In this document: positions 8,317 to 50,562 of the stretch, one piece after another | How the letters are laid out: the number at the start of each line of letters is the position of its first letter | How positions within the stretch are numbered: position 1 is the stretch's first letter | Assembly: GCF_020091405.1 (NCBI RefSeq) | Contig: NZ_CP081903.1 | Location: forward strand, 3,472,501 to 3,536,500 | Length of the DNA stretch: 64,000 bases | Direction: 5' to 3' | From: Bacteroides cellulosilyticus | GTDB taxonomy: Bacteria > Bacteroidota > Bacteroidia > Bacteroidales > Bacteroidaceae | Notes under the pieces: model-generated | Told to the model about the DNA's origin: nothing | The model's input: only the letters and a program-made list of their open reading frames with translations | The model's database searches: none | Program-made: the position numbers and the translations under genes

Positions 8317-9603
8317 TTAAGTTGTTTTTATGAGTTCTTTTTCCAGTTCTTCCATGTTGCGCCCCTTTGTTTCGGGGTAGAGCAGGCTGACGGAAATCAG
8401 GCAGAATACCATGATGATAGCATAAATCATAAAGGTATTGCCTGCGCCCAGATGTTCTATCTCAACCGGGAACAAGGTGGTGACGGTGAAACTGATAATT
8501 CCGTTGAAAACGCCTGCAAGCGATATACCCAATCCTTTTACATGATACGGGAATATCTCAGACAGCAATATCCAGGTAATCGGACCTAATGAAATAGAGA
8601 AGCCGACTATCATGCAGAGCAGTCCGATCAGGATAATGACGGGGGAACCAGACATATAAAATGTGGCGGATACAGTCAGCAGTGAGGCTATCATGATACA
8701 CGAACCGACGATCAGCAGAGGTTTTCGTCCGAGCCGGTCAATCAGTGTCATGGATGCGAGGGTCATAACCACCATACATATCCCGATAAGGTTGGATTGC
8801 AGGAAAGAACTGTCGGGGGTGAAACCCGCCATATCGAAAACTCTGGGTGCATAGAATAATACCGCATTGATTCCGCATGCCATTTGGAAGAAGGCTATAC
8901 TGAAAGCAATAAACAGTATTAGTCGCATCGGGCGTTTAAACAGTCTGCGTCCTTGTTCCTGATAGGAGAGGGCAGTCTTTTTCTTACCTTTCCGTTGGCT
9001 CCGGTTTTCGGTCCATACCGGACTTTCCGGTACAGATGTCAATCCGATAAGGTAGATAATCGGGAACAAAGTACCCAATCCGAGCATCCAGCGCCATTTC
9101 AGTTCCGGACTGTCGAACCAGCCATTCACCAACGTATTGGAAGCGTAAGCCACCAGATAACCTACTCCGATGTTCAGTTGGTTGAACGATACGAGAAAGC
9201 CCCGCTTATCGGAAGGTGCAAGTTCCGCAATGTACATGGGGACTACCAGCAGTGAGATTCCTATACCCAGTCCACCGATGAAGCGGCTTATCAGAAAAAA
9301 CATATACGTCTGACTGAGTGCACTGCCCAATGTGCAGAAGCAAAAGAGCAGTGCTGCCAGAATGAGTGATTTCTTTCGTCCGATTCTTTCGCTGACATTT
9401 CCGGCAAAGAAGTTACCGATGAAGGTTGCCAGCATGGTGATGCTTACAGCCAGCCCTTCCTGAAAGGAACCGGACGTCAGACCGAAAAAGTCGCCGAAGT
9501 ACATGCTTGCTCCCGATACATTGGCTGATATGCCCAGCAGCAGACCACCTATCGAGACGATGAAGCAGGTGATGTACAGATATGTATTGTTTCTTTTATC
9601 CAT
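8317..9603 (-). CDS. MFS sugar porter (sugar:H+ symporter, XylE-like)
   Basis: 428 aa, about 12 membrane helices. It shows the signature motifs of the sugar porter family: ERIGRKKS after helix 2, PESPVW before the central loop, DRLGRKPL after helix 8 and PETKGRNMEELE at the C terminus. Inner membrane. It sits between a GH26-like lipoprotein and a cytoplasmic beta-xylosidase, 4 bp upstream of the latter, so xylose or short xylo-oligosaccharides are the likely cargo (inference). A second, unrelated symporter of the GPH family is encoded at 23199-24695. Confidence 0.9.
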   Translation of the reverse strand: MDKRNNTYLYITCFIVSIGGLLLGISANVSGASMYFGDFFGLTSGSFQEGLAVSITMLATFIGNFFAGNVSERIGRKKSLILAALLFCFCTLGSALSQTYMFFLISRFIGGLGIGISLLVVPMYIAELAPSDKRGFLVSFNQLNIGVGYLVAYASNTLVNGWFDSPELKWRWMLGLGTLFPIIYLIGLTSVPESPVWTENRSQRKGKKKTALSYQEQGRRLFKRPMRLILFIAFSIAFFQMACGINAVLFYAPRVFDMAGFTPDSSFLQSNLIGICMVVMTLASMTLIDRLGRKPLLIVGSCIMIASLLTVSATFYMSGSPVIILIGLLCMIVGFSISLGPITWILLSEIFPYHVKGLGISLAGVFNGIISFTVTTLFPVEIEHLGAGNTFMIYAIIMVFCLISVSLLYPETKGRNMEELEKELIKTT

Positions 9604-10722: not shown

Positions 10723-10818
10723 GCTTAATAAGAGTTTATAGTTTTAATAAATTCATTACTATACCGATATGCGTTATATAGGAGTGAACAGAAGAACGTA
10801 ACTTCTTGTGTGATAGTG

Positions 10819-10950
10819 TACTTGGTGTTCCACTAAGATTAGTCGTAGTGGAACACTAGTTCAGTCGTAGTGGGAAGTGGTTTCAGTCGTAGTGGGAAGT
10901 GGCTTCAGTCGTACTGGGAAGTATGTTCAGTCCTAACGGGAATATAGCTC
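10819..10950. repeat. 22-bp-register repeat array A (six units)
   Basis: AGTC recurs at 10841, 10863, 10885, 10907 and 10929. TAGTGG or a near match (TACTGG, TAACGG) recurs at 10846, 10868, 10890, 10912 and 10934. Every step is exactly 22 bp. A first unit at 10819-10840 carries the motif in inverted orientation (CCACTA at 10830), so units 1 and 2 form an 11-bp perfect hairpin (10825-10835 with 10846-10856, 10-nt loop). The array begins 28 nt after the SusD stop and ends 96 nt before the next gene. No coding potential. See findings. Confidence 0.8.
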
Positions 10951-10978
10951 ATTACCGTACTACGTTGAATTCATCCCA

Positions 10979-20164: not shown

Positions 20165-20197
20165 GACTCTATAATTTTAAAGGTTAATATTCTTATT

Positions 20198-20307
20198 TGT
20201 TTCATCTTATTGGGATAATAGTTTCAACTTGAAGAAACTGTAGTTTCTCCTTATTGAAAATAGAGTTTCTCCTTACTGAAACAACCGTTTCTATTAAGAT
20301 GAAACGG
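20198..20307. repeat. 22-bp-register repeat array B (five palindromic units)
   Basis: GTTTC begins at 20199, 20221, 20243, 20265 and 20287, each exactly 22 bp apart. The right half (GAAAC or GAAAA) follows at 20234, 20256, 20278 and 20301, so most units are small palindromes with a variable 8-9 bp centre. The array starts 17 nt after the GH10-GH43 stop codon and ends 33 nt before the next start. Confidence 0.85.
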
Positions 20308-20324
20308 TCGTTGATCCTTGCTTC

Positions 20325-26442: not shown

Positions 26443-26480
26443 ATCTTGTTTATCTTTTTAATTCTTCTGCAGATAAGCCG

Positions 26481-26533
26481 TCAACCTATCTTAGACTAAC
26501 CGTCTTCTTACCTTAGACTAATTGTTAGTCTAA
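26481..26533. repeat. 22-bp-register repeat array C (short)
   Basis: TTAGACTAA occurs at 26491-26499 and 26513-26521, exactly 22 bp apart, within units ending in ACCG / ATTG. An inverted copy TTAGTCTAA at 26525-26533 makes a 9-bp hairpin with the second copy (3-nt loop). A degenerate unit ending in the same CCG may lie at 26459-26480. It starts 13 nt after the GH35-like stop and ends 38 nt before the esterase start. Confidence 0.7.
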
Positions 26534-37406: not shown

Positions 37407-37458
37407 GTCCCGCGGTTGTTGATGCCCGAAAGATAAATAATTAAGTGATAAATCCCAT

Positions 37459-37602
37459 ATTCCTTTCACTTATATCATTTATTCCTTTCATCTGCATCAA
37501 TAAGAGGGCTGATGCAAAAGGTGGCATCTTTTGCTGTAAAAGATGCCATCTTTTGTATCATTAGATGCCACCTTTCGATGTAAAAGATGCCATCTTTTGC
37601 AA
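37459..37602. repeat. 22-bp-register repeat array D
   Basis: The near-palindromic core AAAGATGCCATCTTT or a variant has its centre at 37524, 37546, 37568 and 37590, exactly 22 bp apart. The first copy is the complementary form GGTGGCATC. In the same register further left, ATTCCTTTCA occurs at 37459 and 37481. Not coding. Unlike arrays A-C it lies between divergent promoters, about 120 bp upstream of the regulator's -7 motif. Confidence 0.85.
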
Positions 37603-41853: not shown

Positions 41854-41888
41854 GTTTTAGGAATTTATTTATTATTGAGCGGTTATGA

Positions 41889-41979
41889 ATCAGTTACGAG
41901 CTACAGGCTACAAGCTACAAGTGCCTTTCGGAACATAGCGCAGCTACTTGTAGCCTGTAGCCTGTAGCTCGTAACTGAT
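41889..41979. repeat. Inverted repeat with GAGCTACA/AGCTACAAG arms (hairpin element 1)
   Basis: 34-bp arms (41889-41922 and 41946-41979) with one mismatch, built of short units like GCTACAAG repeated in tandem. The 23-nt loop holds CCTTTCGG and AGCGCAGC. Lies between convergent genes, so it can act as a two-way terminator. Shares its centre with elements at 45159-45340 and 54176-54280. Confidence 0.8.
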
Positions 41980-50228: not shown

Positions 50229-50330
50229 ATATTTTCGTTGATTGCGTGAGCAAGTTAATTAATAAAAAGCGCATAAAAGTGAAGAAAGGTGAAGAATAGA
50301 TGATGAAAAGCGGAATGGCTAAGAGGTATA

Positions 50331-50398
50331 TAAAAAAAGAAGGCTATCTATCCCAGACAGCCAATCTTTATTAACCTTAAATCTAATACCATGAAAAA
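50331..50398 (-). ncRNA. Candidate small RNA with its own promoter and terminator
   Basis: The minus strand reads TACATTTG (TAnnTTTG) at 50405-50412 with a GTTG -33 match at 50430-50433, 17 bp away. About 40 nt after the predicted start, an 8-bp stem with a G-U pair (50342-50349 with 50355-50362) is followed by a short spacer and seven T residues, a standard intrinsic terminator. The RNA would be about 67 nt and stops well short of the permease gene, which has its own promoter. No ORF. Not recognised as a known family. Confidence 0.5.
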
Positions 50399-50562
50399 CA
50401 CAGTGCAAATGTAGAGGTTTTATGTTATACAACATAACGTTTTACTAATTTTCTTCTTTGGTTTAACATCTTTTAGATTACAGGGCGGCTTTTGTCCCAT
50501 TTATGAGAGAGTAAAGTGCATTTTTGGCAAAGATAGTATTAGTTAATCTTCTATCCCTTGCT

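Follow-up and report, generated by a model that had tools for sequence, protein, structure and literature searches.

Intergenic DNA of Bacteroides cellulosilyticus holds tandem arrays of many different motifs that keep a common step of 22 bp. On balance, we read these arrays as many MITE-like repeat families built on a common 22-bp construction rule, dispersed as whole elements and resized by modules. The analysis started from a window of 64,000 bp (contig NZ_CP081903.1, positions 3,472,501 to 3,536,500), to which all coordinates below refer unless they are called genome positions or name a gap or locus elsewhere. The arrays of the window and their parts are as follows.

10752 to 10964, plus strand: array-bearing element at 10819, present at 9 loci in the genome; its ends were set by eye from an alignment.
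10752 to 10766, plus strand: left end of the 10819 element, with TTCATTACTATACCG, followed by a strong hairpin and the 22-bp units.
Within 10752 to 10964, plus strand: conserved right end of the 10819 element, CTCATTACCGTACTACG, set by eye from the alignment.
10825 to 10856, no strand assigned: 11-bp inverted repeat GTGTTCCACTA / TAGTGGAACAC with a 10-nt loop, in the 10819 element.
10836 to 10942, no strand assigned: 22-bp array of five rows, motif TTCAGTCGTAGTGGGAAG, in the 10819 element.
20194 to 20292, no strand assigned: 22-bp GTTTC/GAAAC array.
26471 to 26533, no strand assigned: short 22-bp array, TTAGACTAA twice and then inverted TTAGTCTAA.
37449 to 37499, no strand assigned: weak two-unit 22-bp array, TATTCCTTTCA (score 13).
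37510 to 37597, no strand assigned: four-hairpin 22-bp array, AAAAGATGCCATCTTTTG (score 28).

A sequence-only reading of the window had described four such arrays, each uniform inside itself and each in an exact 22-bp register. The register is as described in two of them: GTTTC starts at 20199, 20221, 20243, 20265, and 20287, and the 10819 array runs without slippage over five 22-bp rows (10836 to 10942). The 20198 array is bracketed by an 11-bp inverted repeat (20199 to 20209 and 20295 to 20305, found by eye). The 22-bp step is also present in 37459 to 37602, but what had been taken for one array there is two, 37449 to 37499 and 37510 to 37597, which are not in one register because their starts lie 61 bp apart. 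The array at 26481 keeps the step and consists here merely of two direct units and an inverted half (score 15); its orthologues score 32 in B. timonensis and 20 in B. stercorirosoris. Tandem Repeats Finder reported period 22 in 6 of its 12 rows for the window, none of them the 26481 array. Uniformity was not borne out, as units differ within arrays. Among the domains encoded next to these arrays are GH10-GH43, GH43, SusD-like, TonB-receptor, and hybrid two-component regulator domains, a neighborhood that we read as a putative xylan-type utilization locus.

The step was then measured in contiguous stretches of the same genome, 864 kb and then 1.664 Mb, after masking a greedy selection of open reading frames that were 90 aa or longer. 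Local segments were scored +1 for a match and -1 for a mismatch, and a score of at least 15 defined an array unless stated otherwise. Across the 864 kb, intergenic bases matched at lag 22 at a rate of 0.2952, compared with a mean of 0.2750 over lags 5 to 79 (z 12.7), with further peaks at lags 44 (z 5.7) and 66 (z 3.2); lags 7, 11, and 21 were raised too. The rate in coding DNA was 0.2524 at lag 22 versus 0.2505 to 0.2517 at lags 19, 20, and 23, and coding DNA is almost free of lag-22 arrays (2 in 736,134 bases). Intergenic arrays in 864 kb numbered 37 at lag 22, 4 at lag 21, 3 at lag 23, and none at lag 20 or at any lag from 24 to 30. In 1.664 Mb, there were 65 at lag 22, 8 each at lags 21 and 23, none at lag 20, and 2, 1, 0, 0, 0, 0, and 0 at lags 24 to 30; 11-bp arrays numbered 9 in the same scan. 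The sequence-only reading had named a genome-wide scan as a possible refutation of its claim that one 22-bp step runs through differing motifs, and at genome scale the claim holds.

Two other steps recur. Arrays with a 7-bp step (20 in 864 kb of intergenic scan) are nearly as common as those at lag 22, 43 versus 65 in 1.66 Mb at a score of at least 15; one lies in the window at 41895 to 41968, and they are rare in divergent gaps (2 versus 10.1 expected; score of at least 12, 864 kb). Some dyad arrays, a minor class, step by 23 bp (genome positions 2768440, 2890807, 3070298, 3106872, and 3166453). Period 23 is also found in loci of Tannerella, Phocaeicola, and Prevotellaceae and at two loci of Bacteroides sp. 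51, the latter two with the core ACACCCGGGTGT.

Among other genomes, the close relative G143 has 15 lag-22 arrays in 56,402 intergenic bases, and three other members of the genus have 2, 2, and 3 in 100 kb each. E. coli K-12 has no array at any lag from 8 to 59 in 34,890 padded intergenic bases from 200 kb. Pooling 80 loci around one GH43 gene gave a weak peak, with 6, 10, 13, 8, and 6 arrays at lags 20 to 24, respectively; loci labeled Bacteroides contributed 9 of the 13 at lag 22 and 3 at lag 23, with no more than 2 at any other lag from 15 to 40. Three order-level genomes, 60 kb in total, held one lag-21 array and none at lag 22. These 80 loci and 60 kb are too little to bound the peak taxonomically.

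The motifs behind the common step fall into families. When consensus units were clustered at 17 or more matches out of 22, in any rotation or strand, 36 of the 65 arrays formed 11 motif families of 2 to 9 arrays each (1.664 Mb), and the other 29 were singletons at this threshold; similar unit pairs numbered 56, versus 0 to 1 among shuffled units. The view that arrays share spacing but not sequence needs correction, since the same motif families turn up at many places in the genome. This is so for three of the four arrays described in the window: the 10819 array has relatives at 9 loci, the 37510 array at 12 loci in both orientations (our own count of the match list), and the 20198 array at a single one, genome position 8486, with 76% identity. 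The array at 8486, GGAAACGACAGTTTCC, has steps of 22, 22, 22, and 23, counted by eye. No second copy of the 26481 array was found in the genome, and the gap holding the 20198 array had no match on plasmids. A GTTAAC palindrome pattern occurs at 14 positions here and at none in a sample of 59 other genomes of the phylum. The ATCATT family is genus-wide: by our reading of the match table, the array part was matched in 31 of 133 genomes of the genus, this one included, and outside the genus there was one weak match in a sample of 118 genomes of the order, this one included; its units are spaced by 22 bp in 51 of 60 intervals, by 23 in 8, and by 25 in 1.

Several families keep more than a motif. 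In the GTATAC family, identity between loci is 0.82 to 0.88 in the same register and 0.63 to 0.67 in the next; in the 10819 family, the best register gives 0.78, 0.92, and 0.87 and the next 0.64, 0.71, and 0.78. Both families carry unit-specific spacers in the same order at different loci. The best register is clear in one of three pairs of the GATGCC family, and in the GTTAAC family its margin over the next is often nil. BLAST found flank similarity between loci in several families. The conserved leader and tail around the repeats were worked out for the 10819 family only: its nine aligned copies have in common a left module with the strong hairpin, most of them share the right end, and by eye they show no clear terminal inverted repeats. 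The arms of the hairpin covary in some copies (TTCC/GGAA, TCCC/GGGA, and TTTC/GAAA), and two copies, those of loci L256 and L257, have a C/A mismatch. Because unit order, spacers, and tails are kept between loci in some families, we conclude that such arrays were copied whole as short hairpin-rich elements. Local amplification of one unit, which the sequence-only reading had allowed, fails as a full account, given families at many loci, some with kept unit order and flanks.

Many units are dyads. In a test with 100 shuffles that permuted the 22 columns and kept the periodicity, dyad symmetry reached P ≤ 0.05 in 23 of 42 arrays (864 kb, score of at least 13) and was not significant in the other 19; a net stem score of at least 4 was found in 46 of 65 consensus units versus 24.4 in shuffles. 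By these two measures, dyads are enriched yet not universal. In the ATCATT family, ATCA and TGAT follow each other in turn at 11-bp intervals around a variable central 7 bp, in sequences that were selected for these half-sites. The TACGGAG family has direct 11-bp units arranged as two inverted arms facing each other. Binding on one DNA face and evenly spaced hairpins had both been offered as explanations of the step; the dyad enrichment (23/42) fits either.

The arrays turn over between relatives. In B. timonensis, ∼97% identical around 10819, that array has exactly one more unit (+22 bp), the array at 26481 has altered and added units, and the 20198 array is missing. In both B. timonensis and B. 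stercorirosoris, the orthologue of 26481 has changed arms but still the same step, and the gap at 20198 is much shorter in B. stercorirosoris. The comparison with G143 covered the 110 gap pairs for which both flanks could be located (mean flank identity, 97.2%); other gaps were dropped, including those with the arrays at genome positions 3648902 and 3741058. Of 11 array gaps, 4 are of equal length in G143, and the others show changes of 132 (6 × 22), 22, or 11 bp or larger, complex replacements. In gap 3723745, units have changed in concert. Unit number thus differs between relatives, as in a simple minisatellite or VNTR. That the arrays might be ordinary duplications fixed once per lineage is contradicted by the variation of both unit number and motif among close relatives.

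We also looked at sites where the element is absent. Genome G123 lacks ∼340 bp that, at genome position 6834906, contain both a 10819 element and another hairpin repeat; when the alignment was reread, this one empty orthologous site had a 3-bp GAA on both sides of the composite segment. The array element's own ends are unproved there because the segment also holds the second hairpin repeat, and the same gap in G143 has a third, different content. At genome position 257917 (L256), G143 has the right flank without the element and its left flank is unmatched, so this is not a clean empty site. An ∼85-bp repeat at L256 (1427 to 1511), present on both strands in many copies in G143, G215, and G123, adjoins array elements at L256 and L262. 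In the B. timonensis locus L085, the gap orthologous to 20165 to 20324 carries a long inverted repeat in place of the 20198 array.

A junction motif, approximately TTCATTTCTGNNCGGTTATGAAT, came up while empty sites of the 10819 family were being traced. It occurs in the window at 41868 to 41968 and, depending on the score cutoff, at 28 to 40 collapsed intergenic places in 1.66 Mb. It joins modules in varying order, namely, the TTCACCACAGAG hairpin, the GAGCTACAGGCTACA heptad module, the TTCAACTTCTGATTCGCA module, the ACGCGGACGACGCGG hairpin, and the 10819 array element; the arrangement resembles cassettes around a shared site. In two gaps of relatives where the array element is absent, the motif occurs once, and the center of the L085 inverted repeat, TTCATTTCTATACGGATATGAAC, is similar to it by eye in the alignment. 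Of 94 matches to a matrix, 64 are intergenic, versus 10.7% of bases; the matrix was trained on matches of the same genome, and reversed sequence gave 36 matches in all. The motif was rejected as an insertion frame shared by all arrays: it lies near 6 of 65, versus 3.8 expected, and is not enriched.

Cyanobacterial small dispersed repeats, mobile units of ∼21 to 27 nt that nest in intergenic repeats, are not known to us as arrays in which many motifs keep a single step. CRISPR loci are similar in having constant-period direct repeats that are partly palindromic, but were rejected here: there are no unique spacers, and the units follow one another directly at 22 bp and differ among themselves. 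A search of one open-access library found no account of 22-bp arrays in Bacteroides, and the nearest case was from Porphyromonas gingivalis, which belongs to the same order. This is BrickBuilt, an intergenic MITE with 23-nt tandem units without spacers between a leader and a tail, found at many loci, with strain-variable unit number and predicted stem-loops (PMC4596501). Like the present arrays, it has abutting 22- to 23-nt tandem units in intergenic DNA, with a leader and tail at several loci, as in the 10819 family. BrickBuilt is one sequence family with IS5-like terminal repeats, whereas here several unrelated families have a common 22-bp step and the 10819 copies show no clear terminal inverted repeats by eye; tandem direct repeats of 41, 23, and 22 nt in P. 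gingivalis W83 are noted in the same paper (PMC4596501). Judged by form, BrickBuilt is the closest published relative in the library searched. The window arrays are not assigned to it, given that neither element ends nor target duplications are proved here and that the likeness drawn is one of form.

On the reading that we favor, the elements are short, intergenic runs of ∼22-bp modules, many with hairpin-capable dyad symmetry. Some activity, perhaps a trans-acting transposase, a recombinase, or recombination between repeats, would disperse them whole, and slippage or recombination between modules would later lengthen or shorten them. No candidate for the mover of the elements was found. A ruler is needed because the step distribution is narrow: slippage explains the gain and loss of units, not the choice of 22. 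More tentatively, the common step might correspond to two turns of DNA with half-sites every 11 bp. The dyads might then lie on one helix face, as required by a binding or moving activity or by negative supercoiling that favors evenly phased hairpins. Such a two-turn spacing on a single face, which would also take in the minor 23-bp class, is the simplest physical reading of the 22-bp step and our leading, if unproven, one. A stronger version is possible, although we consider it unlikely: a putative Bacteroides machine, a binding or mobilizing protein or a polymerizing nucleoprotein, would impose a lattice of 11-bp half-sites and 22-bp dyads on intergenic DNA, giving many unrelated motif families one register, with the arrays as its footprints or substrates.

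The arrays could instead act as RNA, as tandem hairpins in leaders, operon gaps, and 3′ ends selected for transcript stability or processing, which we regard as rather unlikely. Single-strand folding with DNA parameters does beat dinucleotide shuffles in all six strands tested from the four window arrays (z -2.6 to -6.0), and in some copies both arms covary. Stem mismatches on the transcript strand of co-directional gaps include 16 G·U and 6 A·C, a weak hint of selection on RNA that is suggestive only, as there are also 22 other mismatches and the bias counted by array is 9 versus 3. Against this role, arrays occupy co-directional, divergent, and convergent gaps (23, 9, and 4) much as gap length predicts (20.9, 9.9, and 5.2), and the absence of placement bias also speaks against a promoter- or terminator-specific function. 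Conservation is slightly lower in the array bases than elsewhere in the gaps, 92.3% (735/796) versus 94.8% (3,130/3,303) identity with G143, in a comparison of 11 aligned gaps, 10 of them with arrays and two of these largely replaced. Hairpins in RNA need no fixed 22-nt step, and at gathering score Rfam found nothing at the arrays of the window. Elsewhere in the window, the FopS small RNA (RF04319) lies at 50329 to 50401 on the minus strand (78.9 bits).

The arrays might also be operators, rows of sites two turns apart that bind dimers on one face, with one protein per family. A step of 22 (minor, 23) that is constant over unrelated motifs, the existence of 11-bp arrays (n = 9), and the ATCA/TGAT half-sites of the ATCATT family all fit this arrangement. 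It is improbable nonetheless: the arrays show no promoter bias, eleven families plus singletons would demand many proteins of equal geometry, and relatives at ∼97% identity have lost or replaced some of the orthologous arrays.

We find it quite improbable, too, that the arrays are neutral minisatellites grown in place through replication slippage and hairpin template switching. Gains and losses by whole units and the concerted changes in gap 3723745 are what such growth would give, but it offers no cause for slippage to pick 22 in dozens of arrays and does not account for unit order and flanks common to several loci in some families. Inversions of hairpin loops between relatives, outside the arrays under study, also speak for it. 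Compared with G143, hairpins at genome positions 3671247 and 3595703 have the loop inverted between intact arms, the trace expected of template switching or hairpin inversion. Loop flipping was rejected as specific to arrays: in a strict test of 78 hairpins with exact flanks, one was an exact flip, outside arrays, and a second flip, at 3671247, was seen by eye; neither involves the arrays under study.

REP/BIME elements (compare PMC2817692 and PMC3733652) are short, dispersed intergenic palindromes, at times tandem, and proposed protein-binding sites. They share those features with our arrays, which differ in their head-to-tail 22-bp step and several small families. Their movement by a REP-associated Y1 transposase (RAYT) is a most improbable explanation, as PF01797 (Y1_Tnp) had no match in the whole genome in a search that was positive for 5 of the 14 control genomes, E. 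coli among them; without a Y1 transposase, the REP/RAYT route is unsupported, and a GTAG-tagged REP reading of motifs that end in GTAG fell with it.

By extrapolation from 65 arrays in 1.66 Mb, the whole genome would hold ∼270. Through them, the length of intergenic DNA changes from one close species to another in a major gut genus, including inside a polysaccharide use locus. If one step does run through many unrelated families of short elements, a physical ruler would be at work in these genomes, and it would be directly searchable.
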